Origin: Holophagae bacterium
GTDB lineage: Bacteria > Acidobacteriota > Holophagae > Acanthopleuribacterales > Acanthopleuribacteraceae
Assembly (NCBI GenBank): GCA_030429565.1
Contig: JAUIFE010000003.1
Location: forward strand, 372,001 to 436,000
Direction: 5' to 3'
Length of the DNA stretch: 64,000 bases
Positions 29,106-59,703 of the stretch are shown in pieces (within the stretch, counting starts at the first letter, position 1; each line of letters begins with the position of its first letter). The notes beneath the pieces were generated by a model. The model was not told the origin of the DNA. It searched no databases and was given only the letters and a program-made list of their open reading frames with translations. A program made the position numbers and the translations under genes.

Positions 29106-32100
29106 TCAAGCCGCCGGGGGAAAGTCCACGATGAAGCGCGCGCCTTTCCCTGAGCCGTCGCTTTGGACCTCGATGTGACCGTTCATTTCTTGAATGGCCG
29201 TCGCGCAGTAATGGAGGCCGTACCCGGAGTTTCCGGTTTTGGTGCTGAAGCCCTGGGTAAAGATGCGGGCGACCAGTTCCTTGGGAATACCGGTGCCTTT
29301 GTCGATCACCTCTAAGCGCACGGTTTGGTCGTCCATCACTCGGGTGCGCAGGATGAGGATACGATCTTCGGCTTGTGCGACGGCCGCTTCGACCGCGTTG
29401 TCGATGAGGTGCACCAAAACCTTGGCGAGTTTGCCTTTTTGTAAGGGAATTTTGGGGAGGGTTGCCAAATCGCGAACCACGTTGAATTCGGCGGCATCGA
29501 GGTTGCGCTTCTGAAACTGTAAAACGTTTTCAACCACGGCGTTGAGGTCGAGCATTTGCGCCTCTTCGCTCTGGTCGGCGTAGCGGCGTTGCGATTCAAC
29601 AATGTTGTCGATGCTGGCGAGGTTGCGTTTGAGGCGCGCCATTTCATCTTCCATATGATGCGCCTGTTTTTGCCAGGTCTCTTCGATGCGGTCCCAAGCT
29701 TGCGAGACCATGGTTGCCCGTTCGGACTCAAAGAAGGCGACGAGCGTGCCTTGTTGTTCTTGTTCGCGCAATAGGTTAACCATGCGCCGGTAAAAGTTAA
29801 GTGCCTGGTTCTTGCCGACCAAGGTGCTCATCACTTCGACCGACGTTTTGACGCTGGCCATGGCATTGCCCACGTTGTGCAGCAGGTTTGAGGCGATTTC
29901 GGCCATCCCCGCGCCGTGTGCCGCCTCAAGCAAGCGTTCCTGAGCGTCGAGAATTTGCTGGTTTTTGTGTTGCAGCTCTTCCAGGAAACGGGCCTTGGTC
30001 ACGGCGGAAATGGCGTGCTCGCGCAGGTGGTGCAACTTGAGGTAATCCTTGTGGTCAAAGGCGTCGCTGGTTTCAATGTTCTCCAGCATGAGGAAGCCTT
30101 CGACCACATCCTGAATGCGCACATCCATCACCATGCGCGAGGCCGGGTCATTGCGTTCGGCTCGCGGTTCGATTTTGTACACGCCCAGCAACACCTCTTT
30201 GGTTTGTTCGGTGAATTCGTGCCGAAGCTGATCCTCTTCGAGTTGCGTGCGTCGCAGCGGAATGACGTAGCCCACGTCGGCGACCATTGAAAACACTTTT
30301 TTCTGCTTGCCCTCATCGTATTCTCCGAGGAAAAAGGCGCCACACTGGGCATTGGGCAAAAGGAGCATGGCTTTGTCGAGCAGGGTCGCCAACAGGGCCT
30401 TGAGCGAGACTTCACGGTTAATTTCGCGCACGATTTGTTCGAGGATTTTGAGTTCCTGGTGCTTGTTGCTAAGGTCGGCGGTCCGTTGTTGCACCTTGCG
30501 TTCCAAATCGAGGTTGGTCGCCTGCAATGCCCGGGTTTTGCCGAGCAGTTCCAGGTGAACGCGAATCCTCGCCAGCAATTCCTCGCCTGTGACTGGTTTA
30601 TAGAGGTAGTCGCTGGCGCCGGCGGCGAAACCGCTCATGAGGTCGGGAATCTGGTTTTTGGCGGTCAGCAGAATGATTGGCAGTTGGTTGGCGTCAAACT
30701 TCTTGCGCAGGCGGCGACACACCTCGTAGCCCGACATTTTCGGCATCATCACGTCCAGCAACACCAAGTCGACGTGGCGGCCTTGCTCGAAGCAGGCCAT
30801 CGCCTCCTCGCCGTTGCGGGCCAAGTGAATTTGGTAATGCTGTAGCGAAAGGTGGTTGACCAAAACCTGCAGGTTGATCGGATCGTCGTCGACCAGCAGC
30901 AGGTGATAACCCTGACCGTCGCTGGGATTGACTGGTGGTTCAAACAATTTGGCCAAATGGGGGCGGTCGGCGAGGGCGCCCGACCACTCGTCGCCCAGCA
31001 CGCGCGAACGCTTTTCCCGGTGCAATGGTGTTTCGCTAATCGGCAAGGTGAAGGTGAAGGTGGCGCCGTTTCCTGGCTCGGAGACGAGGGTGAGACGGCC
31101 TTTATGGAGTTTGATTAAGCTGGTGGCAATGGTGAGGCCTAGGCCGGTGCCGCCGTATTCGCGTGAAATGGACCCGTCGGCTTGCGAAAAAGATTCGAAA
31201 ATTCGTTCCTGCTGTTCCGGCGCGATACCGATACCGCTGTCGGCCACGTCGATGACAAGTCGGTCGTCCTCTCGGTGCGCGCTGACACGGACGAAGCCCT
31301 GGTCGGTGAATTTGACGGCGTTACCGACCAGGTTATAGAGAATTTGTAGGATGCGGTTTTCGTCGCCGTGGACCGCGGGCAAGTCGGGAGGCACGGCGTT
31401 AATGAGCTGTAGGTCTTTGGTGCCGACCAGGCTTTTGGTCACGCCTAAAACCACTTCGACGCAGCCGCTTAAATCGACCGGCTGCAAGCTGAGCGGCAGC
31501 TCGCTCGAACGCAGTTTGGAGAAGTCGAGGATGTCGTTGACCAGGTTGGCCAAGCGCCGCCCGCTGGCGGAGACCATTTCCAAGTTCTTGCGCGTGGTGG
31601 CGGTTAAATCGCCGCCCGCCCCGGCGATCAGCGATTCGACAATGCCGATGATGCCGTTTAGCGGCGTGCGCAACTCGTGCGAGGTGTTGGCCAAAAATTC
31701 GTCTTTAAGGCGATCATGGCGTTGCAAGCTTTCGACAACCATGCGTTCCAGGGCCAGTTTGCGGTTTTGGTGGCGTTGGTAGGCCCAGACCACCGAAACC
31801 AAAATCGCCAAGTAAATGCAGTAAGCCCACCATTTTGCCCAAGGTGGCGGAATCACGGTGAGCGCCAAACCCGTGCCTGCCTCATTCCACACGCCGTCGT
31901 TGTTGGCACCCCGCACCATGAAGCGGTAGGCGCCGGGATCGAGGTTGGTGTAGGTGGCCTCGAGCTGGTTCGACACTTCGACCCAGTCGCGGTCAAAACC
32001 CTCGAGTTTGTAGGCGTAGCGGTTTTTTTCGGGCGCGTTGAAATCGAGCGCGGCGAAGCGGAAACTAATCACCGAATCGTCGTGCTGAATGGTGATCGCT

Positions 32101-34271
32101 TCGGTGATGTGAATGGGCTGTGGTAACGGCATACTTTCGTTGAATACGCGGAAATCGGTGATGACCAGGCTGGGTCGATTGGGGTTGTCGACGACTTGTG
32201 CCGATAAAAAGGCGTTAAAGCCGTTGTTGCCGCCGAAAAAGACGCGCCCGAAACTGTCGCGGGCGGCGGTTTGCGCGGTGAAACCCGAATCGAGCAAGCC
32301 GTCGTATCGGTCGTAATTGCGCACCGCACCCGTGCGGGGGTCTAGGCGCGTGACCGACTGTTCCGTGCTCAGCCAAATATAATGATCTTCCTCAATAATG
32401 GCGTAGATGTTGTCATTGGGTAAGCCGTCGCGCGTGCGGTACTTGGTAAATACCGCTTGGCTGGGATCGCTGTCGAGATTGTCGAGCCGGTTGAGGCCGC
32501 CGCCGTACGTTCCGACCCACAGTCGTTGCTGCGAATCGATAAACAGCGGCCGCACAAAGTCTTGGCTAATGCTTTCCGGTCGCGCGTCGCTGTGGCGAAA
32601 GTGGGTAAAACGCTGCGTGTAGGGATTAAGCCGGTTGAGACCGCCGCCGACCGTGCTGATCCACAGTTGGCCGTCCTCGTCTTCGACGATGTCGTTGCAG
32701 CCGGTGCCGCCCAAGGCGTCGGGTCGTTTGTCCTGTGGTGGAAAGTACTTGAGTTTATCGGTTTTGGGCAGGTAACGCACCAACCCGCCCGACGATGCGA
32801 TCCAGATTATTTTTTGGCGATCCTCGAGGATGGCGCGCACCGTTCCGGCCGGCAAGCGGTCGCGCCCCAGTTGCAACACCATCTTGCCGCTGTCCGGGTT
32901 CAACACCGAAATGCCGCGTTCAAAGGTCCCGATCCAAATGAAACCGCGGTGGTCCGGCGTTAGCGTGTAAATGCGGTCGTCACACAAACTGGTGGGATCG
33001 TCGGGGCGGTGGCGGTAAAACTGGTGGCGGCCCTCGTCGAAATCCCATTTAATCAATCCACCGACACTGCCAATCCAGACTTGGTTCTTTGCGTCGACCG
33101 TGAGGGCGTTGACGCGGTTGTGGACGAGGTCGGTCGGCGCGTAACCGGCAATGCGGTGGTGGCTGAACTTGGTCGGTCGCAATTTATTGAGCCCACCCGT
33201 GCGCGTGCCCACCCAATAAACGCCGGACGCGTCGTTGAGAATGGCGCGGATATCGTTTTGACTGAGGCTTTTGAGATCAAACGGGCTGTGCGCAAATTGT
33301 TCGAAATAGGCTGCTTTGCCGCTGCGCGCCGGATGGTAGCGAAACAAGCCGTGCATAATGGTTCCGACCCAAATTTGCCGCTGAAAATCCTCGTAGATGC
33401 AGGTAATCACCTCGCGTTGCAGCGGGTGCAGGGCGGCCGGATCGGCCGTGCTTGCGGGCAAATAGGGAATGGTGCGGCCGTTTTCGGGGTCAAACAAATC
33501 GAGGCCGACCTCGGTACCGAGCCACATCAAGCCGTCGCTGTCGCTGAGCAATTGGCGCACTTTGTTGTCGCGAATGGTGGTTGGATCCTTTGGGTCGTGA
33601 AAAAAGCGGGTAAAGCCGTCGTCCTCGTCGAGGCGGTTGAGGCCCGCCGTCGTCGCCACCCAAATACGGCCGTTTTGATCTTCGGCAATACTCCACACGC
33701 GGTTGTGGCTCAGCGAGCGTGGTCTGGCGGGGTCGTGCAAGTATCGGGTGAAGCGGCCGCTTTCGGGATGAAAGCGGTTGAGGCCGCCTTTGTTGGTGCC
33801 CACCCAAATGCGGTCACGGCTGTCGCGAAAAACCGTTTGCACCAAATCGCTGCTAAGGCTGTGCGGATCGTCGGCATGGTGCACGAAGTGTTCGAAGGTC
33901 TCCTGACGCGGGTCGAAGCGGTTGAGCCCGCCGCCCCAGGTGCCGACCCAGAGGATGCCGTGGCTGTCGAATTCCATGCTGGACACACTGTTGGTGCGCA
34001 AGCTATTGGGATTTTCCGGTGAGTGCTGGTAGACCAGCGTTTGGTGTCCGTCGTAGCGGTTGAGGCCGTTTTGGGTCCCGAACCACAAAAAACCCATAGG
34101 CCCCTGGCGAATCGTGTAAATCGTGGAGTGCGACAAACCCATTTCGTGCTGGATGCGCGTGATATCGAAACGGCGACCCGCCGCCGCATTGTCCTGGGCG
34201 AACAACGCCGTGGCCAAAAGCGTCCACAGCACCACGAGGGCTGTTTTGTTTACGATGTGCCGAGATACCAT
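29106..34271 (-). CDS. Giant hybrid sensor: beta-propeller, histidine kinase, receiver, GAF-like region, second histidine kinase
   Basis: The 1721-residue protein starts with a signal or anchor (LVVLWTLLATALFA). Residues of about 30-725 are two-component regulator propeller repeats of the G-x-L-W-V-G-T type, likely two propellers. A Y_Y_Y domain (to about 800) and a membrane helix near 810-830 follow. The first kinase has phospho-acceptor H865 (NTSHELRTPLNG), an N box ILYNLVGNAVKFT and GTGLGL. A receiver domain has D1173 (LLDVMMPKMSG). After a coiled coil and GAF-like region comes a second dimerisation motif with H1465 (SNLLHNVGNAMASV) and a second ATPase (LVHLIDNAVEAA, GYGLHYC). The sensed ligand is unknown. 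It stands alone, so the output is probably through a distant regulator. Confidence 0.93.
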   Translation of the reverse strand: MVSRHIVNKTALVVLWTLLATALFAQDNAAAGRRFDITRIQHEMGLSHSTIYTIRQGPMGFLWFGTQNGLNRYDGHQTLVYQHSPENPNSLRTNSVSSMEFDSHGILWVGTWGGGLNRFDPRQETFEHFVHHADDPHSLSSDLVQTVFRDSRDRIWVGTNKGGLNRFHPESGRFTRYLHDPARPRSLSHNRVWSIAEDQNGRIWVATTAGLNRLDEDDGFTRFFHDPKDPTTIRDNKVRQLLSDSDGLMWLGTEVGLDLFDPENGRTIPYLPASTADPAALHPLQREVITCIYEDFQRQIWVGTIMHGLFRYHPARSGKAAYFEQFAHSPFDLKSLSQNDIRAILNDASGVYWVGTRTGGLNKLRPTKFSHHRIAGYAPTDLVHNRVNALTVDAKNQVWIGSVGGLIKWDFDEGRHQFYRHRPDDPTSLCDDRIYTLTPDHRGFIWIGTFERGISVLNPDSGKMVLQLGRDRLPAGTVRAILEDRQKIIWIASSGGLVRYLPKTDKLKYFPPQDKRPDALGGTGCNDIVEDEDGQLWISTVGGGLNRLNPYTQRFTHFRHSDARPESISQDFVRPLFIDSQQRLWVGTYGGGLNRLDNLDSDPSQAVFTKYRTRDGLPNDNIYAIIEEDHYIWLSTEQSVTRLDPRTGAVRNYDRYDGLLDSGFTAQTAARDSFGRVFFGGNNGFNAFLSAQVVDNPNRPSLVITDFRVFNESMPLPQPIHITEAITIQHDDSVISFRFAALDFNAPEKNRYAYKLEGFDRDWVEVSNQLEATYTNLDPGAYRFMVRGANNDGVWNEAGTGLALTVIPPPWAKWWAYCIYLAILVSVVWAYQRHQNRKLALERMVVESLQRHDRLKDEFLANTSHELRTPLNGIIGIVESLIAGAGGDLTATTRKNLEMVSASGRRLANLVNDILDFSKLRSSELPLSLQPVDLSGCVEVVLGVTKSLVGTKDLQLINAVPPDLPAVHGDENRILQILYNLVGNAVKFTDQGFVRVSAHREDDRLVIDVADSGIGIAPEQQERIFESFSQADGSISREYGGTGLGLTIATSLIKLHKGRLTLVSEPGNGATFTFTLPISETPLHREKRSRVLGDEWSGALADRPHLAKLFEPPVNPSDGQGYHLLLVDDDPINLQVLVNHLSLQHYQIHLARNGEEAMACFEQGRHVDLVLLDVMMPKMSGYEVCRRLRKKFDANQLPIILLTAKNQIPDLMSGFAAGASDYLYKPVTGEELLARIRVHLELLGKTRALQATNLDLERKVQQRTADLSNKHQELKILEQIVREINREVSLKALLATLLDKAMLLLPNAQCGAFFLGEYDEGKQKKVFSMVADVGYVIPLRRTQLEEDQLRHEFTEQTKEVLLGVYKIEPRAERNDPASRMVMDVRIQDVVEGFLMLENIETSDAFDHKDYLKLHHLREHAISAVTKARFLEELQHKNQQILDAQERLLEAAHGAGMAEIASNLLHNVGNAMASVKTSVEVMSTLVGKNQALNFYRRMVNLLREQEQQGTLVAFFESERATMVSQAWDRIEETWQKQAHHMEDEMARLKRNLASIDNIVESQRRYADQSEEAQMLDLNAVVENVLQFQKRNLDAAEFNVVRDLATLPKIPLQKGKLAKVLVHLIDNAVEAAVAQAEDRILILRTRVMDDQTVRLEVIDKGTGIPKELVARIFTQGFSTKTGNSGYGLHYCATAIQEMNGHIEVQSDGSGKGARFIVDFPPAA

Positions 34272-35649: not shown

Positions 35650-35685
35650 CAATCCGGGCCGCGAGCCCAACCCGTGAGGTGTTTT

Positions 35686-36255
35686 TTGATTTCTACCAAC
35701 GACTTTAAAAAAGGTTTGCGTTTCGAGCATGAAGGCGCCCCGTGGCAGATTATGGAACACACCGTTCATAATCCCAGTGCGCGCGGTGCCGCCACCCTGG
35801 TCAAAGTCAAAGCCCGTAACTTGGTCACCAACCAGGTGTTACAGAAGTCTTTTAAATCGGGCGACATGTTTGAAGAACCCGACTTGAACAAGTTAGAGGT
35901 GCAGTTCCTTTACGAGGAAGGCGATGATCTCGTATTTATGGATCGCGAGACCTACGAACAGCACAATGTTCCCAAGGAGCGTTTTGGCGACAGTTTGCCT
36001 TGGATGACCGACGGCTTCGAATTGGACCTGTTGCAATACAACGGCGAAATTATCAGCATCGACTTGCCCAAGTCGGTCTTGATCACGATCACTTCCGTCG
36101 AGCAAGGCGCCAAAGGCGACACCGCTTCCGGGAAGGTTATGTCACGCGGCGTGCTCGAAAACGGGGTAGAGCTGCAGGTGCCCACTTTTATCAAAGAAGG
36201 CAGCACGGTAAAGGTCGACCCTTCCACCAACACTTACCTGGGTCGCGAAAGCTAA
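35686..36255 (+). CDS. efp: Elongation factor P
   Basis: EF-P relieves ribosome stalling at polyproline. The 189-residue length fits a TTG start at 35686 (product begins MISTNDFKKGL), with GAGGTG five bases upstream; a GTG four codons earlier is less likely. Three beta domains are recognisable, ending KVDPSTNTYLGRES. The tip loop reads NPSARGAATLVKVK: no lysine stands at the EpmA-modified position, and an Arg sits near the site that EarP modifies in other species, though with one residue of offset. No modification enzyme gene is nearby. Confidence 0.95.
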   Translation: MISTNDFKKGLRFEHEGAPWQIMEHTVHNPSARGAATLVKVKARNLVTNQVLQKSFKSGDMFEEPDLNKLEVQFLYEEGDDLVFMDRETYEQHNVPKERFGDSLPWMTDGFELDLLQYNGEIISIDLPKSVLITITSVEQGAKGDTASGKVMSRGVLENGVELQVPTFIKEGSTVKVDPSTNTYLGRES

Positions 36256-36275: not shown

Positions 36276-36317
36276 AAAGGATCCTCGCGACGCTGTCGCC
36301 GGGATCCTTTTGTTTTT
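36276..36317 (+). terminator. Rho-independent terminator after efp
   Basis: Outer stem AAAGGATCC (36276-36284) pairs with GGATCCTTT (36302-36310), with an inner GC-rich hairpin, followed by TGTTTTT. Confidence 0.8.
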
Positions 36318-36360: not shown

Positions 36361-38139
36361 TTAGATACTGATGCTGTTCGTGACGCGTGACGGCAGTTGC
36401 AATTCGTACGGTCGGAAGCGATGCGTGTCGTTGGCGTGATCGATTTGTCCTTCGATCTCAGCCAATTTGGCTTGGAAGGCCTTGAGCAAAGGGTCGACCC
36501 GTTCGTCGACAAAGTCGTCATCGGGGTAGTGGCCGAGGCGGTCGTAGTAACGCGAGCTCAGCAAGTAGGTGAATTCGTTCTGGTACAGCGCGATGGTGAT
36601 TGGCGGCATGCGTGCCAAAAACGACGCTTCGTCTTCGCTTGAAGCGGCGGTCGGCGGCGGACCGTACAGCGCCAGTGGGCAGTAGGGCGGGTAGCTCATG
36701 TAGGGGAACTGGGCGTAGTTTACCGAGCTGTGCTGCGGCCCCGCGATGTAAATGATGTGGGTCAGGATCAGTTTTAGGTCGTCGCGGTTGGTGATAAAGC
36801 CGTCGTCGTCGACCGGTAAGCCTTTGACTCGGGCGCCGTCCTGCGCCGACATTTCCAGCGCCCAGGCGCGCAATTCGCTGTCGGCGAGAACGTCGGCGTC
36901 GGACCTGTAGTAAAGGTCGATATAGTCGCCGACAAAGCCGTGGATCGCTTGCCACAAGGCGGTTGTGTCGTCGCGGAACGGGTAATCGGGTAACAGCTCG
37001 CGGTCGGCCATATGGCGCGCCGTAAAACGCCGCTCGGGGATTTGGTCGACCAGTCGCCAATCCTGATAGGAACGCCGCATCAGTTCAAAAGAACCCTGCA
37101 AGGTCCCGCCCAACAAGGTATCGACCACGCCGTCTTTGACAATTAAGTCGCCACGCGCATGTTCATTAATTGCAATGTTAAAGCGGAAATGGGGTTTGAG
37201 CAAAACCAGGATCGGGTGGTCACAGCTCAAGGTGCGGTGGCTGGCGATCACCATCGGCTCCACCGTCATGTGGCAGTCGGCGAAGTGAGCGATGGTTTCG
37301 TGGTGGTTGCCGTCCGCGCTGCTCACGTACAGTTTGGCGAGCTGCCATTTCATGCCGTCCTTGGGTGTGAAGATCGGGTTTTTCTCGGCATCCGGCGTTT
37401 GGCCCAGTTGAATCGCTACCGGCATTAACGGGCACTGCCCGGGGGCCGTGTCGGCACGGTAAAACAAAGCCAGCGGCGCCGTGAGGTATTTTTGCAGTCC
37501 AGAGGCGGTGCCCAGATCGATGCCGTCCAGAATCGCGTAATCGCACAGGTAAAGCCGGCCTTCGGCGCCCGCTTCCTGCAGCGTTTTTCCGCTGCCGGTG
37601 ATTGCTTGGAACATGGCGTCGTCAACCGGGAATCGATCAGGCACCTTGCTAATTCCTTGGATGATATTGGGGTTGTAGCCCGCCAAGCGCTGGTAGGCAA
37701 AAAAATCGTCGCTCTGCCAATCAGGCAACATGTCCGGTTTGGGCAACTTTTTGTAGAGGTCGGCAAAGTCCTTCAAGCTGTCGGCGCGGATCGGTTTGCG
37801 GCCGACCAAATCGGCAATGATCGTGCGTTGCAGCATGGCGCCGCTTTCGTTGAGCGTTTTCTGCAGGACGACCGGCAACGACAACAGGTCAAGGTTGAGC
37901 ACCCCTTCGTCAAAGTATTGGCGGATGACCCGTAAGTGATTAATTAAGAGGTTTTTGCCGATTTCGAGAAACCCCAGTTGGAAACGAAAGGAAAACGCCT
38001 CTTTTTCCGGCATCTTTTTGGTCATCGGCACCGGCGGCAAGGTGTCGTATTCGTACTGGTAAAGCGTGTGAGCAGCCTGAATTTCGGCTCGGCGCCGGCG
38101 TGGGTTACTTGCATCTTGAGGAAGGCAGGGTCGGGTCAT
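36361..38139 (-). CDS. Lipoxygenase
   Basis: Lipoxygenases add O2 to polyunsaturated fatty acids through a non-haem iron. This 592-residue protein has the full ligand set: H285 and H290 in HFADCHMTVEPMVIASHRTL, H470 and N474 in GPQHSSVNYAQFPYMSY, and a C-terminal isoleucine, I592. There is no N-terminal PLAT domain and no signal peptide, unlike the secreted Pseudomonas enzyme, so a cytoplasmic location is likely. The start at 38139 follows AGGAG by six bases. The upstream divergent gene is an outer-membrane protein. Such genes are scattered among bacteria and often thought to be transferred. Confidence 0.93.
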   Translation of the reverse strand: MTRPCLPQDASNPRRRRAEIQAAHTLYQYEYDTLPPVPMTKKMPEKEAFSFRFQLGFLEIGKNLLINHLRVIRQYFDEGVLNLDLLSLPVVLQKTLNESGAMLQRTIIADLVGRKPIRADSLKDFADLYKKLPKPDMLPDWQSDDFFAYQRLAGYNPNIIQGISKVPDRFPVDDAMFQAITGSGKTLQEAGAEGRLYLCDYAILDGIDLGTASGLQKYLTAPLALFYRADTAPGQCPLMPVAIQLGQTPDAEKNPIFTPKDGMKWQLAKLYVSSADGNHHETIAHFADCHMTVEPMVIASHRTLSCDHPILVLLKPHFRFNIAINEHARGDLIVKDGVVDTLLGGTLQGSFELMRRSYQDWRLVDQIPERRFTARHMADRELLPDYPFRDDTTALWQAIHGFVGDYIDLYYRSDADVLADSELRAWALEMSAQDGARVKGLPVDDDGFITNRDDLKLILTHIIYIAGPQHSSVNYAQFPYMSYPPYCPLALYGPPPTAASSEDEASFLARMPPITIALYQNEFTYLLSSRYYDRLGHYPDDDFVDERVDPLLKAFQAKLAEIEGQIDHANDTHRFRPYELQLPSRVTNSISI

Positions 38140-38709
38140 GGGGGGCTCCTCGCGAGGAACTCGACACCATGGCGGGTGACGACACAACCGGCTCAGGGCG
38201 CAAGCGCGCCGAGGAACCGAGCTGATGACGCGGGTTTTTGCCACGGCCGAGTCGATTGGTTGCCGAGAACGGCGGGTCCAAGGTGAGCAGGTGATTGTGG
38301 ATTTTGGGGGTTCGCGAAAGTTTACCATGAAAATGAATTGTCGGGCTTGTTGGCTTTGACGACATTTTCACCCTTTGTCGGGATGACGCCGCCACAGGCT
38401 GAAAAGCGCACCGTCACCGGCTTTAAAAACGGTCACCGAAAACAACGTAAGCGTTTTGAAAATAGTGCTTTAAATTGTCGAAAAGGCGCTAGGCGTCACG
38501 CTTTGGGGATTCGGCGCCGCCGCGCCGGCCCGTTTTTAGCTGATTTGCGCTTTTATGGGCGACGTTGCTGTGCCGCGTCTTTTTGCGGCACGGCGCGCTG
38601 AATCTTGCCTATGCCCTGTGTCGGTTTCAACGGCGCCGGGCGGCGGCAACGACGCGCGGGTTGACACGCTTTCGCGGCCCGCGCCACTACGAATCGTAAC
38701 GAGGATTTT
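38140..38709 (+). other. 570-base gap, no supported gene
   Basis: Divergent promoter region of the lipoxygenase and outer-membrane genes. An 87-codon plus-strand frame (38338-38601) lacks a ribosome site and similarity, so I do not call it. Confidence 0.5.
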
Positions 38710-39465
38710 ATGAATTTGTTGATGCTATGTCTGATTGCATTTCAAGCACCCGCCACGGGTGCCGCCCCTGCCTTTAGCAGTGATCGTCCCGATCAAACCG
38801 ATGCACCCAACACCGTTGGGACCGGTTATTATCAGCTCGAAATGGGATACCAACGCACCGAGTTCGACCTGATCGGCGGCGATGTCGCCATCGACCAAGT
38901 ACCCACCGCTTTGTTGCGCATTGGATTGCTTGACGATTTCGAGTTGCGCTTGAGTTACGACGGTTACATTGACATCGACCCGCCCTACGGTGACGGTGAA
39001 AGCGGTTCCGGCGACGCTCACGTGGGTTTTAAATGGCGCTTTCACAACGACGGCGACACGCAATGGGCCCTCATGTTTGACAGCAACACCATGCTTGGCG
39101 ACGATGAACTGGTTTCCGATGAATGGGAGCCCAGTGCCAAACTGGCCTTTGGCACTGCTTTAACTGAAACCCTTAGCTTGGGCGCCAACGCCGGCATCGC
39201 AACCCAAGATCAAGGCGGCGATTTGGAAACCGTCGGCATCTACAGTCTCGTTTTCGGATTTGGTCTCACCGAGCGGGTGGGCTTCTTTGCCGAAGCGTTT
39301 GGCGAGGTGCCCGCCTCAGCCGAGGGCCGTCCGCGTAACAGCGCCGACATCGGCTTGACCTATGCGATCAGCGATCACTTCCAGTGCGACCTGGCCTACA
39401 CGCGCGGCATTTCCGATTCCGCCCCCGATTGGTCGGCCACCACCGGCTTTACCTATCGCTTCTAA
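38710..39465 (+). CDS. Outer-membrane transporter-like protein (PF13557 type)
   Basis: The 251-residue protein has a short signal peptide ending near ATGAAPA and then alternating amphipathic beta strands, ending TTGFTYRF with the terminal Phe typical of outer-membrane barrels. The opening FSSDRPDQTDAPNTVGTGYYQLEMGYQ is characteristic of the PF13557 family, first linked to phenol degradation and now broadly annotated as transporters. Its role is not known; the lipoxygenase is divergent from it. Confidence 0.8.
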   Translation: MNLLMLCLIAFQAPATGAAPAFSSDRPDQTDAPNTVGTGYYQLEMGYQRTEFDLIGGDVAIDQVPTALLRIGLLDDFELRLSYDGYIDIDPPYGDGESGSGDAHVGFKWRFHNDGDTQWALMFDSNTMLGDDELVSDEWEPSAKLAFGTALTETLSLGANAGIATQDQGGDLETVGIYSLVFGFGLTERVGFFAEAFGEVPASAEGRPRNSADIGLTYAISDHFQCDLAYTRGISDSAPDWSATTGFTYRF

Positions 39466-39634: not shown

Positions 39635-40084
39635 ATGATGAAGCATATGTTCCGTTTAGGTTTACTCGGCCTGTTATTTACCGGCATGGTGTTCGCCAAA
39701 GAAACACCCAACCGCATTGACCTGTGTAAAATCGACGCCCAAGATTTAGAGCGCGGTCGCATTATGGAAATCGCGACCTACATGCTGAAAAAAGGCTACA
39801 AAAACGGCGTCTACCAGCCCGTCATTAAAGTATCCCTGCGCATTGGGAAAAACCTCGACATGCCTGGCTCATTCTTTAAAAACGAAGCGGAAAAGAAAAT
39901 CTATGACGCAAAAAAAGAAGGCAAAAACGAGGTGCTGATCTGGGAAGCCGGCCATCAGCACAATTACAAAGCCAAAGCAGTGGTGACCCTAACCGACGGT
40001 AAACCGGACAAAATCAAAGTCATGCTGCACGCGCCCGGCCAGGAAAAGGCGAAGACGGCTGAATGCGCTTATCCGTGGAACTAA
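39635..40084 (+). CDS. Small secreted protein of unknown function
   Basis: The 149-residue product has a signal peptide (LGLLGLLFTGMVFA) and a mature Lys-rich part with two cysteines (C33 region DLCKID and the C-terminal AECAYPWN) that could form one disulfide. The first ATG of two is used; AAGGTG lies seven bases upstream. It has its own downstream terminator. No family recognised. Confidence 0.72.
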   Translation: MMKHMFRLGLLGLLFTGMVFAKETPNRIDLCKIDAQDLERGRIMEIATYMLKKGYKNGVYQPVIKVSLRIGKNLDMPGSFFKNEAEKKIYDAKKEGKNEVLIWEAGHQHNYKAKAVVTLTDGKPDKIKVMLHAPGQEKAKTAECAYPWN

Positions 40085-40439: not shown

Positions 40440-42242
40440 ATGGCCTCTTCTGAACCGATTTACGACGAAAGTAAGATTAAAAGCTTAAGCTCCTTAGAGC
40501 ACATTCGCCTGCGTCCCGGTATGTATATCGGCCGCCTCGGCGACGGCAGCCATCCCGAAGACGGCGTTTACGTCCTCATCAAAGAAGTCGTCGACAACGC
40601 CATCGACGAATTCATCATGGGCCACGGCCAGCGTATCGAAATTGAGACGAATGAGACCGGTGAGGTCCAAATTCGCGATTTTGGACGCGGTATCCCGCTG
40701 GGGAAAGTGGTTGATTGTGTGTCGCGTATCAATACCGGCGCTAAATACAACGATGAGGTTTTCCAGTTTTCGGTTGGTTTGAACGGGGTCGGTACCAAGG
40801 CGGTTAACGCCCTGTCGCAATCCTTCACCGTGCGTTCTACCCGTGACGGCGCCTTTAAAGAAGCTCACTTCCTCAAAGGCAAACTGGAAAGCGAGCAGGA
40901 CGGTACCAGCGACGATCCCAACGGCACCCTGGTTCGCTTTCAAGCCGATACCGAAATATTTCCCGATACCGTGCGCATTCGCGAGGAATACCTGCGTAAA
41001 CGCGTGCAGTATTACAGCTTTCTCAACAAGGGGCTGACGCTCAAACTCAACGGCGAAACCTTTTTCTCGCGACGTGGCCTCAAGGACTTGTTGGTGGCCG
41101 AGGTCGGTGAAGACACGCTGTACGAGCCCATTTACTACCGCGACAAATCAATTGAGTTCGCCATTACCCATACCAACAACTACGGCGAAAACCACTACAG
41201 CTTCGTTAACGGACAGTACACCAACGACGGCGGCACCCACCTTTCCGCCTTTCGGGAAGGCATCCTTAAAGCCGTGAACGAGTACTCGAAAAAAAGTTTT
41301 CAAGGGCAAGACGTCCGCGACGGTATTGCCGGTTGCGTTGCTGTCAAGGTCAAGGAACCCGTGTTTGAGTCGCAAACCAAAAATAAATTGGGCAACACCG
41401 ATGTGCGCCAGCCGATCATCAATACCGTCAAGACGGCGATCGTCGACGTCCTCCACAAAAACGAGGAACTGGCCAAGAAAATCATCGAGAAAGTGACCTT
41501 TAACGAAAAGATCCGCAAGGAACTGCACGCCGTCAAAAAAGAAGCGCGTGACAAGGCGCGCAAGGTCGCCATTAAAATTCCCGGCTTACGCGATTGCAAG
41601 TACCACCACGGCGACAAAAGCGGCCGCGGCAGCGAAAGCATGATCTTCCTGACCGAGGGTCAGTCGGCCTTGGGTAGTATGGTCAGTTGCCGCAACGCCG
41701 AGTTGCAAGCCTTATTTGCCTTGCGCGGTAAGCCGCTCAACGTATTCGGTCTCAAAAAAGACTCGCTGTACAAAAATGCCGAACTGTACAACATCATGAA
41801 GGCTTTAGATATCGAAGAGACCGTGGATAACCTGCGTTACAACCGGGTGATTCTTGCCACCGACGCCGACGTCGACGGCCTCCACATTCGCAATTTGTTG
41901 ATCACCTTTTTCCTGCATTATTTCGAGGAATTGGTGTTGCGCGGGCATCTCTACGTTTTAGAAACACCGCTGTACCGCGTGCGCAACAAAAAGCACACCC
42001 ACTATTGCTATACCGACAAAGAGCGTGACGCCGCCCTTAAGAAACTCAAAGATCCCGAGCTGACCCGCTTTAAAGGTTTGGGCGAAATCTCGCCCAAGGA
42101 ATTTGGTCAGTTTATCGGCGACGAAATGCGGATTGTCTCGGTGAGTGTCGATCGCGCCAGTGAAATCAAAAACATCCTGCGCTTTTATATGGGGAGCAAC
42201 ACCCCTGAACGCAAGAGTTACATTATGGAGAAATTGGTTTAG
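40440..42242 (+). CDS. parE: Type IIA topoisomerase subunit B (ParE-like)
   Basis: This is the ATPase subunit of a topoisomerase IV or gyrase. The 600-residue protein has the GHKL ATPase (EVVDNAIDEF, RDFGRGIPLG, GLNGVGTKAVNAL), a transducer domain, and the TOPRIM region with LTEGQSALGS and the metal-binding DADVDG. It ends in RFKGLGEISPKEFG followed by a normal ParE tail. The length and lack of the gyrase insert favour ParE. AAGGTG lies upstream of the ATG. parC follows after 90 bases. Confidence 0.93.
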   Translation: MASSEPIYDESKIKSLSSLEHIRLRPGMYIGRLGDGSHPEDGVYVLIKEVVDNAIDEFIMGHGQRIEIETNETGEVQIRDFGRGIPLGKVVDCVSRINTGAKYNDEVFQFSVGLNGVGTKAVNALSQSFTVRSTRDGAFKEAHFLKGKLESEQDGTSDDPNGTLVRFQADTEIFPDTVRIREEYLRKRVQYYSFLNKGLTLKLNGETFFSRRGLKDLLVAEVGEDTLYEPIYYRDKSIEFAITHTNNYGENHYSFVNGQYTNDGGTHLSAFREGILKAVNEYSKKSFQGQDVRDGIAGCVAVKVKEPVFESQTKNKLGNTDVRQPIINTVKTAIVDVLHKNEELAKKIIEKVTFNEKIRKELHAVKKEARDKARKVAIKIPGLRDCKYHHGDKSGRGSESMIFLTEGQSALGSMVSCRNAELQALFALRGKPLNVFGLKKDSLYKNAELYNIMKALDIEETVDNLRYNRVILATDADVDGLHIRNLLITFFLHYFEELVLRGHLYVLETPLYRVRNKKHTHYCYTDKERDAALKKLKDPELTRFKGLGEISPKEFGQFIGDEMRIVSVSVDRASEIKNILRFYMGSNTPERKSYIMEKLV

Positions 42243-42332
42243 GCGCGTGCCGCGCGCCAACGTTCGCCCTCTTTTTGGGCGGCTGAATTCAGCGGGCCGG
42301 GCCCGCACAGTGACAGTGCATAAGGATGAATC

Positions 42333-44285
42333 ATGGCGGATCAACTTCGCGAACTCATAGACGTCAACTTCTTGGAATACGCCAGCTACGTCATCAAAGA
42401 ACGGGCGATTCCCCACATTAACGACGGCTTCAAGCCGGTCCAGCGCCGTATTTTGCACACCATGTCCGAGGTTGAAGACGGCAAGTTCAACAAGGTTGCC
42501 AACGTCGTCGGTCGCTCGATGCAGTACCACCCACACGGCGATGCCTCGATTTTTGCCGCGCTGGTCGTCCTGGCCAACAAAGAGTTTTTTATCGATAAAC
42601 AGGGGAACTTCGGCAACATTTACACCGGTGATTCCGCTTCTGCCGCGCGTTATATCGAATGTCGTTTGACCCCGCTTGCCAAAGAGGTGTTGTTTAATCG
42701 CGAAATTACCGATTACGAACCGTCCTACGACGGCCGTAACCAAGAGCCGGTTACCCTGCCCGCCAAAATTCCCGTGTTGCTGCTGCAAGGTGCGGAAGGC
42801 ATTGCTGTTGGTATGTCGACCTCGATTCTGCCGCACAACTTCAATGAGGTTCTTGACGCTCAAGTTAAGTACCTGCGCGATCAGCCGTTTCGGCTGATTC
42901 CCGACTTTCCCACCGGCGGTACCATTGACGCGCGCGATTACGATCAAGGCAACGGCAAGGTTAAGGTGCGTGCCCACATCGAAGCACGCGACGAGAAACA
43001 CCTGGTCATCCGCGAGATTCCCTACGGCACCAACACCGAAAAACTGATTAATTCAATTGAAAACGCCATCAAAAAAGGCCGTATCAAGGTTAGCGCCATT
43101 CAGGATTACACCGCCGAAAACGTGGAAATTGAGCTGAGTTTGCCGCGTGGTGTGTATGCCGACCAAGTTTTGGAAGCGCTGTACGCCTTCACCGATTGCG
43201 AAATTAGCCACTCGGTACAGATGGTTTTGATTCACGAGGACAACAAACCGCATGTCCTGACCGTGAATGAAGTGCTTAAGTACAATACTGATAAGTTGTT
43301 AGATGATTTGCGTCTCGAGCTGGAAATTGAACGTGGCAAACTGCGTGACAATCTCCATTTCAAGACTCTGGAACAGATCTTCATTGAAAATCGCATTTAC
43401 AAGAACATTGAAGAGCAGACCACCTACGAGAAGGTCATTCAGGCCGTTTACGACGGCTTCGTGCCCTTCGAAGATCAGTTAATTCGGGCGATTGTCGATG
43501 AAGATGTCGAGCGTTTGCTGCAAATCCGCATTAAACGGATCTCGCGTTTTGATATCAACAAAAGCCGCAAAGAGATCGAGGCCATCCTCGCACGTATCGA
43601 TGAAGTGAACGCCTTGTTGGCCGATATGGTCACGACCACGATTAATTACATCACCGCCCTGAAGAAAAAGTTTGGCAAGGATTACCCGCGCCGTACCAAG
43701 ATCACCGAATTGGAAACGGTTGACCGCACCGAGGTGGCCATCCAGGATCTCAAGCTGGGCTACGACCGCAAAACCGGCTACCTTGGTACCGAAATCAAAA
43801 CCAAAAACTATGTTGCCTGCTCGCAGTTCCACAAGATTTTGGTGGTGACCGACAAGTACTTCAAAGTCATTCCCGTCGCCGAAAAGCTCTACATTAAAGA
43901 GAAGATTCTGTACGTCGACAAAGTCGATCAAGATGTGACCTTCAACTGCGTTTACCGCGAGCAAACTTCGGGCATTGCTTATATGAAGCGCTTTAAAGTT
44001 GAAAAGTTCATTATGGAAAAAGAGTACGCATATTTGCCGGAAGAATCCGTCAAAATTTTGCTCTTCCAGCCCGATCCGGCGCCGACCTTCAAAGTCTTTT
44101 TCCCGCTCAAAGCGCGTGCTCGAGTGACTGAAGAAGTGATTGATTTGTCGACGATGAGCATTAAAGGTTTTGCCGCGCGTGGCAACCGCGTTTCGCCGAA
44201 ACCTGTTGTTGATCTGGAAATTATTAAGAACAACAAACGTGCCGAAGCGGTTGATGATGAAACTCAGGACGACGAAACCACGTAG
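42333..44285 (+). CDS. parC: Type IIA topoisomerase subunit A (ParC-like)
   Basis: This is the DNA-cleaving partner of ParE. The 650-residue protein has the winged-helix domain (INDGFKPVQRRIL, MQYHPHGDASIF) and the catalytic tyrosine in SAARYIECRLTPLA. A tower and coiled coil follow. The C-terminal DNA-wrapping domain is short (about 180 residues) with no GyrA box, which fits ParC. An acidic tail (DDETQDDETT) ends the protein. With parE it forms a two-gene operon for decatenation. Confidence 0.93.
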   Translation: MADQLRELIDVNFLEYASYVIKERAIPHINDGFKPVQRRILHTMSEVEDGKFNKVANVVGRSMQYHPHGDASIFAALVVLANKEFFIDKQGNFGNIYTGDSASAARYIECRLTPLAKEVLFNREITDYEPSYDGRNQEPVTLPAKIPVLLLQGAEGIAVGMSTSILPHNFNEVLDAQVKYLRDQPFRLIPDFPTGGTIDARDYDQGNGKVKVRAHIEARDEKHLVIREIPYGTNTEKLINSIENAIKKGRIKVSAIQDYTAENVEIELSLPRGVYADQVLEALYAFTDCEISHSVQMVLIHEDNKPHVLTVNEVLKYNTDKLLDDLRLELEIERGKLRDNLHFKTLEQIFIENRIYKNIEEQTTYEKVIQAVYDGFVPFEDQLIRAIVDEDVERLLQIRIKRISRFDINKSRKEIEAILARIDEVNALLADMVTTTINYITALKKKFGKDYPRRTKITELETVDRTEVAIQDLKLGYDRKTGYLGTEIKTKNYVACSQFHKILVVTDKYFKVIPVAEKLYIKEKILYVDKVDQDVTFNCVYREQTSGIAYMKRFKVEKFIMEKEYAYLPEESVKILLFQPDPAPTFKVFFPLKARARVTEEVIDLSTMSIKGFAARGNRVSPKPVVDLEIIKNNKRAEAVDDETQDDETT

Positions 44286-45000: not shown

Positions 45001-45282
45001 CGCGAGTTATCGCGTTTCTAGGGTTTAATTGTTCCGTCTTATGAGGGCTTTCTGCGCCATTGTGGTTTAAACTAAAGCCTGCGTCTTTTTGGGTTACGCG
45101 GGGTTTGGTGAGTTACATGTGGCTGGCTTAGTTTCTCCGCGGGAATGGTTTTTCGATTAATGGCATTTTTCGTGATCCAATTCGCGCTTGTTCTCTTTCC
45201 ATACAATCTGTTGCTAATGCTTCGGGACGGCTTGATATAATGCCGGCAAAATTGGGTCCCGCTGCGATCGGCTAGGCTTTTG

Positions 45283-47727
45283 ATGTCGAAACAACACACG
45301 AACTCATCTACAACTGACAAGCACCCGGTGATCTCCGATTCCGCCAAAACCCAGGAATTTATCGGTCGTTATCTCGTCCGCGACTTTATCGGCCAGGGTA
45401 GCATGGGCGCCGTGTTGCTCGGCTTCGATCCGCACCTGCGCCGTGATGTTGCCATCAAGACCATCAACACGCGGCTGACCAAGTACTCGCAGGATCCCAA
45501 CAACTTCCGCCAGCGTTTTGATGTTGAATCTCAGGTTAACAGTCGTTTGAACCACCCCAACATCGTTGGCATCTACGATTTTGGGACCCACAACAGCGAC
45601 CCTTTTCTGGTGATGGAATACATCCCGGGTCGTCCACTTGAGGCGCTTTTCCCTGTTGTCCCCAAAATACCGTTGCGTTCGCGTCTCTTTCTGCTCGAGC
45701 AAATCGCCGCCGGTCTCGATCACGCCCACAGTCAAGGCGTGATTCACCGCGATATTAAGCCCGCCAATATTTTGGTGACTGATCAGTACGAAGCCAAAAT
45801 TGTGGATTTCGGTTTGGCACGCCTCAAAGATTCCAATATCACCACCACCGGCGTCTTTTTAGGCACGCCCAGTTACGCCAGCCCCGAACAAATCACCGGT
45901 ACCAGTGTCTCGGCTGCGTCGGATCTCTTTTCATTTGGCATCATCGCCTACCAATTGCTGTTTGGGAAACGCCCGTTCCCCGGCGACACCTTGAACTCGA
46001 TTTTGTATCACTTGGTTCACAGCCAGCCCGATCTGCTCATTCCGCGTCTCACCCGCGATACCGAGCCGGACGTCATGCAAGCCGCCTTCGACAAAATGCT
46101 TGCCAAAAAGCCCGAGGAACGTTTTTCTTCCGCTGAGTCCTTTGTGGCCGAACTGGTGCGGGGTTTCGGGCACGGCCTCAAAACTTTGCCGATGGCGGAA
46201 GGTCCACTAAGCGGCTACCTGCCCAGCGAGCCTTCGCAAGGTCGGCGTACGCCGCCGCAGACCGTGGAATACGGCGACGGCAGTCACTCTACCGTCACCA
46301 AAACCATTTACCTCAACCCCTACTACGACGAGCCGGGTTGGTTGCTCAAAAACTGGCGTCGGCTTGCAGCCGGTGGCAGTGTGCTGCTGCTGTTGGTGAC
46401 GATTTTGGTCTTGCTGATGAGCGACAATGCCAAGCCCGAGCCCGAAACATCGCCGCCGGTCCAAGTTCTCCAAGAGGAACCGGCTCAGCCCGAACCGCGT
46501 CGCCAAGAACCCGAACCGGTCGACGCGGCTGTGGCCGACACCGATCCCGCCGCCGAGCTCGAACAACAGCAAAACCTCTTTCAAAAGAACTTTTTGACCC
46601 ACATCGATCAAGGCAACTTGGTTCAGGCCGAAATCGCCGCGCTTAAACTTAAAACCCTTGGCGCCGATACCACCACTCATTTTGTGTTGCTCGACGCCCT
46701 GCGTGATTTGGATGCCTCCAAAAAGAAGTCCAACGAGGACTTGGCCCGTAAGCTGACCTTGCAGGTGACCTTCTCCGACGCCCAAAAACGCGGCGACTAC
46801 CGCTTGCTTAAAAAATTGCTCGACGATTACAGTGCCGGCTGGCCCAACGATAAAGTGGTCATTGACGCCTGGTCCGGCGCCGTGGAAACCGCTCGTAAGG
46901 AATACAGCGAGCGCGTTGAAACCATTCACGATAATCTCAAATACGCCGTCGCCAAACACCGGCGCGAAGAAGCGCAGCGTCTGCTTGACGAACTTGCCGA
47001 AACCGACGTTTATTCGCCGCTTGAGATTCAGGTTTACCAGCAAAAAATCAACCGCATTTACATTAACCCCTACGGCATGGTGTTCCTGCGGGTTGAGGGC
47101 GGCACTTTCCGCATGGGCAGTGAGCGCGACCCGCGTCAGGCCGCCAAACATACCGTGACACTCAGTAAACCGTTTATGATGAGTGCCTATGAAATTACCC
47201 AGGCGCAGTACCGCAAGGTGATGGGCCGATCGGCCAATGTTCGGTTCGTCGGTGATCAGCGTCCGGTAGAAAACCTCAGTTACGAGGAAGTGCTCAGCTT
47301 CTTGGACACCCTCAACCAAAAAGAAGAGGGCTACGTTTACCGCCTGCCCACCGAAGCAGAGTGGGAATTTGTGTGTCGGGCCGGCACCGATAGCGAAATT
47401 TACCTGGACGGCGGTGTCACCCTGGCGAGCGCCAACATCAAAGAAGCCGATCTTAAGGAAACCACACCCGTTGGTACTTATGCGCCAAACCCCTGGGGTT
47501 TCTACGATATGTACGGGAATGTTGCCGAATGGTGCCTCGACATTTTCCAGCCTTATCAAGCTGACAAACGCGTCGACCCCATGGTTGCCGGCGAAGGCGC
47601 ACGGGTCATTCGCGGTGGTTCTTTTGATAACAGTGCCGAAGAAATATCGTCGGGCACGCGGGCGCAACGCACGCGTCGGGTTCGCCTGCGCACGGTCGGG
47701 TTCCGCTTGGTGCGCGACCCGCTTTAA
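45283..47727 (+). CDS. Hanks-type Ser/Thr kinase fused to a SUMF1-like (formylglycine-generating enzyme fold) domain
   Basis: The 814-residue protein has a kinase domain (IGQGSMGAVLLG, VAIK, HRDIKPANIL, DFGLAR, GTPSYASPEQ), a membrane helix near 367-385 (AAGGSVLLLLVTILVLLM), a Pro/Glu-rich linker, a helical region and a C-terminal SUMF1-like domain (GGTFRMGSE, LPTEAEWEFVCRAG, YDMYGNVAEWC, VIRGGSF). The cysteine pair used for catalysis by true formylglycine enzymes near the end is absent, so this domain is probably a binding or sensor module outside the membrane. The ATG at 45283 is preferred over the TTG directly before it. Confidence 0.9.
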   Translation: MSKQHTNSSTTDKHPVISDSAKTQEFIGRYLVRDFIGQGSMGAVLLGFDPHLRRDVAIKTINTRLTKYSQDPNNFRQRFDVESQVNSRLNHPNIVGIYDFGTHNSDPFLVMEYIPGRPLEALFPVVPKIPLRSRLFLLEQIAAGLDHAHSQGVIHRDIKPANILVTDQYEAKIVDFGLARLKDSNITTTGVFLGTPSYASPEQITGTSVSAASDLFSFGIIAYQLLFGKRPFPGDTLNSILYHLVHSQPDLLIPRLTRDTEPDVMQAAFDKMLAKKPEERFSSAESFVAELVRGFGHGLKTLPMAEGPLSGYLPSEPSQGRRTPPQTVEYGDGSHSTVTKTIYLNPYYDEPGWLLKNWRRLAAGGSVLLLLVTILVLLMSDNAKPEPETSPPVQVLQEEPAQPEPRRQEPEPVDAAVADTDPAAELEQQQNLFQKNFLTHIDQGNLVQAEIAALKLKTLGADTTTHFVLLDALRDLDASKKKSNEDLARKLTLQVTFSDAQKRGDYRLLKKLLDDYSAGWPNDKVVIDAWSGAVETARKEYSERVETIHDNLKYAVAKHRREEAQRLLDELAETDVYSPLEIQVYQQKINRIYINPYGMVFLRVEGGTFRMGSERDPRQAAKHTVTLSKPFMMSAYEITQAQYRKVMGRSANVRFVGDQRPVENLSYEEVLSFLDTLNQKEEGYVYRLPTEAEWEFVCRAGTDSEIYLDGGVTLASANIKEADLKETTPVGTYAPNPWGFYDMYGNVAEWCLDIFQPYQADKRVDPMVAGEGARVIRGGSFDNSAEEISSGTRAQRTRRVRLRTVGFRLVRDPL

Positions 47728-48542
47728 GACAGCCCCATTTCCAGATCGTCGTAGTGGTCCTGACCGACCTTGCTGAGGGTGATAGTGGCGTTGCCGCGAT
47801 CCCAAGCCGTGATCTGCCAATCCAGAAGCTGATCGTCACCGCGTGGGAAGGGGACCGCGCTGCCGCGGGCTGTCGCCTGCGGTTGCCGATTCAGCCAGTG
47901 GGCGAGCTGCGCGACTTGGGTCTCGCTGAGGTGCGGTGCCGCCAGATTGAGGTGCAAGGCCGCGTAGGGAAAGCTTTGGATCGTAACCTGGCGCCAATAG
48001 GTGCGGTAGCCAGGTGGCGTGTGGGGAAAACGGGCCAGGCGTTCGGCTGCCGTGTCCAGGTGTTCCATGATCGTTTCGCGGCGGCAGTGCAGTTGATGTT
48101 TGACTTGGCGCCAAGCAGCGAAGACCGGTTTAACGGCGAGGTCCCAGGCTGCGAGAGTGACCGCGTTGTTTTGCATGAGAATGTCGTAACGCACGCTCGC
48201 TAATTGGGCGAACCAGTGGCGTACATACCAGGCGCCGTTGAAGTTGGCGACGAATTCATGAAAATTCTGCGAAGGGTCGCGTTCACTGTCACGGAAGTGG
48301 GTGACGTGTTGCATTAGCAGCACGAAAAACGAGGTGGGTCCTTGCCGGCGCGTTGATGCTTCCCAGGGCGGTAAGAAGTGGACCGGATAAACCAAGTCGC
48401 TGTCCGGCAGCATGTCGTGGTAGTGGAGGAAGAGGTCGCGTAGCGGGATGTGCGGGCGTGGTTGAGCCAAATGCCGCCCCAACTGCTCGGGGTTCTGAGC
48501 CAAAAAGGTCGAAAACAAACAAGAACGGGGTTCGTGCCACAT
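47724..48542 (-). CDS. Uncharacterised 272-residue protein
   Basis: The predicted soluble protein starts MWHEPRSCLFSTFLAQNPEQ and is rich in Trp, His and Gln, with no signal peptide or recognised motif. The start at 48542 is preferred because GAGG lies just upstream and the upstream frame becomes low-quality. Its stop overlaps the kinase stop by four bases in convergent orientation. The 675-base region upstream holds no other supported gene. A role cannot be assigned. Confidence 0.65.
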   Translation of the reverse strand: MWHEPRSCLFSTFLAQNPEQLGRHLAQPRPHIPLRDLFLHYHDMLPDSDLVYPVHFLPPWEASTRRQGPTSFFVLLMQHVTHFRDSERDPSQNFHEFVANFNGAWYVRHWFAQLASVRYDILMQNNAVTLAAWDLAVKPVFAAWRQVKHQLHCRRETIMEHLDTAAERLARFPHTPPGYRTYWRQVTIQSFPYAALHLNLAAPHLSETQVAQLAHWLNRQPQATARGSAVPFPRGDDQLLDWQITAWDRGNATITLSKVGQDHYDDLEMGLS

Positions 48543-48983
48543 AGAAGAGCCTCGATTGGGAATGGGAAGCCAAAAAGGCGAGAACCAGGTTGGAGAATCG
48601 ACGCGGGAGACGTGTCGAACCTGATCCTTGCCCGTTGCGGGCCGAAGCCCTGGCGCAAGAACCAACGCGGGAACGCGGTCCTTGCCGATGTGTCGGCTTT
48701 TCCGAAAATAGGAGAATGGTCTTGTGGTGGAAAAGCAATGGGAGACGATGATGAACAAAACATCGATTAAAAATGGGCGATCTATGAAACGCTGATCGCG
48801 TGGCGTCCCGTCACGAAGTGAGTATGCAGGTAATATGCCAGGTAAAAAAGACGACTTGGTGGCGGCAAAAGGTGCGTTTTTCGCTTGCGTTTGCGCATTG
48901 TGCCGCAGGCTGCTTGGGCAATCGACCTTCATTTCGGCCGCGGTTTTTCGATTGGGTGCTTGCCGGCGGAAGTGTCACTCATT

Positions 48984-49020: not shown

Positions 49021-49218
49021 TCAATCGCCGTGTTTGGCTCGGGGTTTGCTTCTCTGAGTGATACCCGTCCTGTTCTGTTTCGATGTTGCCGGATTGGTCG
49101 CTTGCCCGTTTGATGCGATTTTGCCCGGCTTTGTCCTGTTTCCTTATCTGAGTAATAAAAGACCTTACTTTTTAGGTTTATGAGGTTTTGCTTCGTACAG
49201 GCCGCTGGAGGTGTGTTT

Positions 49219-57448: not shown

Positions 57449-57507
57449 TCGCGGCGCCGACGCCGGCGCATCCGCAAGCTGCAATGCTCGAGGAGCATGG
57501 GGGAAAT

Positions 57508-59640: not shown

Positions 59641-59703
59641 ACGAGACCGGCTGATCCGCGCCGGCCACCGCGCCGGCGCGATGACTAGGGAAGGAGCATA
59701 AGC

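Follow-up and report, generated by a model that had tools for sequence, protein, structure and literature searches.

This stretch of an Acanthopleuribacteraceae genome carries a lipoxygenase (LOX) gene whose product is apparently intact and looks like an ordinary bacterial lipoxygenase of a known kind, and the outer-membrane barrel gene that diverges from it is judged to be a chance neighbour, functionally independent of the enzyme. Both genes lie in what we call the window, the whole stretch of 64000 nucleotides analysed here (G000:C15:372001-436000, in a genome of 10.38 Mb). Our preferred reading, which we hold to be probable though well short of assured, is that LOX is a competent, CspLOX2-like enzyme lacking a PLAT domain, that EPA or a host polyunsaturated fatty acid (PUFA) would be its substrate, that its gene would be transcribed separately and that the barrel works independently of it. 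The features concerned are as follows, with all LOX residue numbers counted from M64, the preferred start.

35674-36255, forward strand: elongation factor P (EF-P), identified by Pfam; flank of the LOX-bearing interval, collinear in the same-genus genome G001
36276-36310, strand not applicable: inverted repeat (16-nt arms, 88% complementary) with a T-rich tract after it, in the gap that separates the stop codons of EF-P and LOX
36361-38139, reverse strand: lipoxygenase gene, 592 amino acids from M64, catalytic domain alone
36364-36366, reverse strand: I592, the C-terminal isoleucine and, by alignment, the fifth iron ligand (carboxylate)
36718-36732, reverse strand: HSSVN, with iron ligands H470 (36730-36732) and N474 (36718-36720), both invariant in 86 of 86 aligned lipoxygenases
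37285-37302, reverse strand: HETIAH, with iron ligands H280 (37300-37302) and H285 (37285-37287), likewise invariant in 86 of 86
38140-38328, reverse strand: in-frame upstream extension of the LOX open reading frame, probably untranslated, without similarity to relatives, which start at PxLPQ
38146-38151, reverse strand: GAGGAG, likely ribosome binding site from the sequence, 6 nt before the ATG at 38139
38140-38709, strand not applicable: region of 570 bp between the LOX and barrel starts
38710-39465, forward strand: outer-membrane barrel of the PF13557/COG4313 type (PF13557, 1.4e-16), with 12 strands, a signal peptide and a DRPDxTD motif
39635-40084, forward strand: small exported protein of no Pfam family, which G001 and G003 also carry beside their topoisomerase IV genes (78 and 49% identity respectively)
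40440-44285, forward strand: topoisomerase IV ParE/ParC-like genes by Pfam, a flank conserved in G001, G003 and G004

As annotated, the LOX open reading frame runs from 36361 to 38328 on the reverse strand and is 63 codons longer than the gene counted from M64. That M64 (38139) is the likely start, and that the annotated one lies too far upstream, is well supported by the local sequence: the gene most likely spans 36361-38139 because GAGGAG stands 6 bases before M64 and because M64 opens the N-terminal PxLPQ motif, which in our alignment is common to CspLOX2 and many relatives. With this start, the gap between LOX and the barrel gene is therefore 570 bp and not 381 bp. Within these 570 bp we found no Rfam match or RNA element, and no promoter signal rose above chance. 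On the other side of the gene, the inverted repeat at 36276-36310 might conceivably be a terminator for EF-P, and it is absent from the terminator-prediction list.

Pfam places both LOX and the divergent PF13557 barrel where the preliminary description of this DNA had put them. LOX matches PF00305 over the full length of the catalytic domain (3.8e-64, 217.8 bits against a cut-off of 23.6), and PF00305 was the only family returned, so that no PLAT domain was detected by this search. The N-terminus (MTRPCLPQD...) is hydrophilic, and a crude hydrophobicity scan, which served as the signal-peptide check, revealed no hydrophobic stretch there and thus no signal peptide. These results uphold the earlier description of the enzyme as a cytoplasmic type without PLAT domain or signal peptide. 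A clear signal stretch at the N-terminus is likewise missing from nearly all of the aligned bacterial relatives, and as judged from the sequences the cytoplasmic, PLAT-less form is the norm among them. The five iron ligands H280, H285, H470, N474 and I592 align with those of CspLOX2, in agreement with the claim that all of them, including the terminal isoleucine, are intact. The further claim that this is uncommon in bacteria was right for the possession of any lipoxygenase, found in 2 of 297 sampled Acidobacteriota genomes and present in fewer than 0.5% of bacterial species (PMC6612559), but not for the intact ligands, since four are invariant in all 86 aligned sequences and the C-terminal residue is isoleucine in 79 of the 86 (valine in 6 and leucine in 1).

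The AlphaFold model of LOX (pLDDT 93, pTM 0.93; input of 43 window and locus sequences) was matched by Foldseek to CspLOX2 with TM scores of 0.89 by query and 0.92 by target length (ranges 0.86-0.89 and 0.90-0.93). Together, family, ligands and fold support the assignment of LOX as an intact, cytoplasmic-type, PLAT-less iron lipoxygenase. A protein of this fold whose main reaction differs (of the hydroperoxide isomerase/epoxyalcohol type, or of the bis-allylic 11R type), or a low-activity relic, might be read from the long lone branch that LOX forms in our tree (0.97-1.06 changes per column) and from the serine S357, which by our reading of the alignment occupies the apparent Coffa stereocontrol column (glycine in 40, alanine in 32 and serine in 13 of 86 sequences). 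However, the ligands and core motifs are all intact, the fold is confidently modelled, and codon usage and GC3 match those of the neighbouring genes; we regard this explanation as improbable. The GC3 value of 0.73 is at the top of the neighbours' range and the codon distance of 0.087 is well inside it, so the idea of LOX as recent foreign DNA finds no support in its composition. No traces of insertion elements were seen around LOX beyond short repeats at chance level.

A search of GTDB-wide contigs found 412 LOX relatives, of which 80 were kept; the tree was built from bacterial sequences, and eukaryotic lipoxygenases were compared by score alone. In this tree the window LOX is sister to a proteobacterial clade (UFBoot/SH-aLRT 100/99), and the other lipoxygenases of the family fall elsewhere: the C9 protein of the window's own genome (G000) pairs with G004 C133, G004 C221 stands beside another Acidobacteriota sequence, and G001 C9 groups with Nostoc. 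A single clade for all Acanthopleuribacteraceae lipoxygenases was rejected, with p-AU values of 4.5e-20 with G001 C9 and 4.8e-7 without it, although the long branches call for caution in reading these values. That the family enzymes do not form one clade (AU p<1e-6) fits repeated acquisition by transfer as well as ancient paralogy with later losses. The family also holds a very divergent, long LOX-like protein (L006:1-2520 / L009, G001:C103), whose open frame of 967 amino acids ends in isoleucine and includes a long N-terminal part.

The preliminary description had suggested that the divergent barrel may import or export the lipid substrate or product of LOX, possibly a signalling oxylipin. 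Such a transport-oxygenation pair, moving PUFA in or oxylipin out and co-regulated from the 570-bp region, would suit the divergent arrangement of the two genes and the COG4313 channels, structural relatives of the barrel that have been implicated in the uptake of hydrophobic molecules (PMC4493636). In a check set beforehand, however, the divergent pair proved not to be conserved. The same-genus genome G001 has the order PPIase, EF-P, barrel, small exported protein, ParE and ParC as in the window, with a barrel orthologue 65-66% identical to that of the window, but this block contains no LOX, and its gap between EF-P and the barrel measures 334 bp as against 2454 bp with LOX in the window. The edges of the extra 2.1 kb in the window are not definable against G001, as the intergenic DNA does not align. 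G001 has its own LOX at another locus, non-orthologous to the window LOX. In G003, of the same family, other genes occupy the approx. 7.6 kb that separate EF-P from ParE, and a barrel homologue lies approx. 1 Mb away.

Nor do other lipoxygenase genes keep such a barrel close by. The fetched DNA flanking LOX, up to 8 kb on each side, held none by barrel HMM or DRPDxT motif at 80 LOX loci of other genomes and at four alignable LOX loci of the family. A PF13557 protein is encoded in 11 of 22 genomes with LOX, and by coordinates none of these proteins falls inside the fetched LOX regions (two ambiguous loci, L064 and L068, were settled by the HMM and motif searches). The barrel itself was modelled by AlphaFold with 12 strands (pLDDT 75, pTM 0.72; four sequences), and its best PDB matches were the FapF amyloid-secretion barrel and then, lower, the COG4313/Pput2725 channel 4rl8; both have 12 strands as well, with TM scores of approx. 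0.69 by query length and 10-15% identity. An identity as FadL, with its 14 strands and N-terminal hatch, was rejected, as the window barrel has 12 strands and no hatch and FadL scores far lower (TM approx. 0.3 by target length). Passage of lipid through the barrel would be compatible with its COG4313-like fold, and we found no evidence that ties the barrel to LOX. The idea of the barrel as a fatty-acid transporter partner was therefore rejected on synteny, absence near other lipoxygenases and fold; with no shared promoter signal found in the 570-bp region either, we consider a co-regulated pair very improbable. The barrel would instead belong to an older PPIase-EFP-barrel-UNK-ParE-ParC block and work independently of LOX, a result that cautions against inferring function from a divergent gene pair in one genome.

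Several observations concern the wider neighbourhood. A BBP7-type porin gene, of a barrel family other than the window's, lies 17-51 bp from LOX on the opposite strand at four Schlesneria-like loci of one clade only (L044, L051, L056 and L057; e.g. L056:9778-11355). In the window itself, translation of 29106-34271 (reverse strand) gives a hybrid sensor kinase of 1721 amino acids in which propeller-type motifs recur at the N-terminus, kinase as well as receiver regions are present, and the C-terminal part again resembles a histidine kinase. At 45280-47727 (forward strand) one gene joins a Ser/Thr protein kinase to a domain of the FGE-sulfatase kind (formylglycine-generating-enzyme-like). The open reading frames at 49180-51276 (forward strand, 698 amino acids) and 47724-48932 (reverse strand, 402 amino acids) have no Pfam match. 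Genes of beta-oxidation, for FadB/FadJ-like proteins and for an acyl-CoA dehydrogenase with SCP2, occupy 57484-61299 on the forward strand, approx. 20 kb from LOX, with no evident link to it.

As to the substrate, the window's own genome, that of a marine, probably animal-associated acidobacterium, has three consecutive genes, pfaD, pfaA and one that is pfaB/C-like, and thus encodes an EPA-type PUFA synthase; pfaA scores 1790 bits against a curated cut-off of 1010, with pfaD upstream and the KS/FabA-domain pfaB/C downstream. The pfaDAB/C layout has been published for members of the Acanthopleuribacteraceae, and EPA makes up 12.2% of the fatty acids in A. pedis and 6.2% in S. corallicola, although not necessarily in the window strain (PMC8841776). 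Myxobacterial lipoxygenases of the same general type, from Sorangium and Archangium, oxidize EPA efficiently (PMC12152508). EPA is thus plausible as the natural substrate, given the organism's own pfa genes, the published EPA of the family and the use of EPA by the myxobacterial enzymes. The statistical association of LOX with pfa is weak. Among 41 relatives LOX occurs in three of the four pfaA-positive genomes and in none of the other 37; inside the family the counts are 3/4 and 0/3 (a hand-calculated Fisher value of approx. 0.11), and all three members that lack pfa have genomes of small size. The comparison is uninformative in Shewanella, where pfaA is present in 110 of 118 genomes, every one of the 14 with LOX included; at this base rate (93%) the test is without power. 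Across 50 LOX-bearing genomes pfaA exceeds the cut-off in 14, leaving many carriers without it, and the 14 include heterocystous cyanobacteria, in which the match is presumably to heterocyst-glycolipid synthase. We found no literature directly joining lipoxygenase and PUFA synthase in bacteria.

Host or prey PUFA might be the substrate in place of endogenous EPA, whether for nutrition, for detoxification or as a means to manipulate the lipid mediators of the host. Animal association is on record for both of the family's described isolates, one of which came from coral (PMC8841776), and the family LOX genes are patchy and of several origins, as niche genes would be. However, lack of a signal peptide implies no Sec export, whereas the P. 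aeruginosa enzyme is secreted (PMC5764228), and the cell carries EPA genes of its own; we hold action on foreign PUFA in place of EPA to be unlikely. Under our preferred reading, LOX would be a catalytically competent, cytoplasmic, non-haem iron enzyme of the bacterial CspLOX2-like kind, encoded by a gene that would form a single, separately transcribed unit restricted to the window lineage. By the standard mechanism, its Fe(III)-OH would remove hydrogen at a bis-allylic position of the polyunsaturated fatty acid, and addition of O2 would give the hydroperoxide. The most likely substrate would be EPA (20:5) made by the cell's pfa-type synthase and freed from phospholipid, or else PUFA of an animal host, so that LOX probably works as a cytoplasmic oxygenase of self-made EPA or of host PUFA. 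Our data show the family, the fold, the ligands, the genes of the PUFA synthase and the failure of the pair to be conserved; the activity, the separate transcription, EPA as the substrate and the role of the product are what we infer here.

The window's own genome has a second lipoxygenase (L007:7443-9356, G000:C9), 37% identical to the window LOX. We advance only tentatively, as a doubtful extension, that EPA of the cell's own making and two cytoplasmic lipoxygenases might constitute a self-contained bacterial eicosanoid pathway in this member of the Acidobacteriota, yielding EPA hydroperoxides for signalling within the population or to an animal host. If a bacterium encodes an EPA synthase and two lipoxygenases, it becomes possible to ask directly whether bacterial oxylipins derive from the cell's own PUFA. 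In a relative of the same family, at L010:9971-14818 (G004:C221), a paralogous LOX heads a nearly gapless series of genes on one strand, continued by those for a chemoreceptor-like protein of the MCP/HAMP kind and for a cytochrome P450; the set is possibly an oxylipin operon with a sensor. A P450 also lies near LOX in several relatives (L104:9822-11288, L110:9746-11341, L099:10022-11488 and L067:146-1420), and one downstream P450-like open reading frame is common to 17 cyanobacterial (Nostocales-type) LOX loci, with single cases in planctomycete-like and Gloeocapsa loci.

Compared with known systems, the 64-kb window has no P450 gene by heme motif, whereas in some relatives a P450 gene does lie beside LOX, as in a LOX-P450 oxylipin cluster. 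The Pseudomonas aeruginosa enzyme LoxA/PA-LOX (4g32, 5ir4) has the PF00305 fold and ligands in common with the window LOX, but membership of its secreted type was rejected in view of the missing N-terminal signal peptide. The proteobacterial cytoplasmic lipoxygenases (Shewanella, Colwellia, Enterovibrio norvegicus EnLOX and Roseateles) form the sister clade and mostly lack a signal peptide; they are approx. 120-130 residues longer (approx. 710-740 amino acids against 592) and at most 43% identical, and the enzyme of E. norvegicus DSM 15893, the strain of L081, is active (PMC9498203). By sequence score against solved structures, CspLOX2 of Cyanothece sp. (PDB 5med; 373 bits, 2e-110) ranks above the Enhygromyxa salina enzyme 8x8f (287 bits), PA-LOX (264 bits) and human ALOX15B and ALOX5 (246 and 228 bits respectively). 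CspLOX2 has alanine where the window LOX has serine in the Coffa-like column, is only approx. 36% identical by structural alignment, and belongs to a clade that leaves out the window LOX, a placement to be read with caution given the long branch; it nevertheless has the same PLAT-less build of a catalytic domain alone, the PxLPQ motif and the five ligands.
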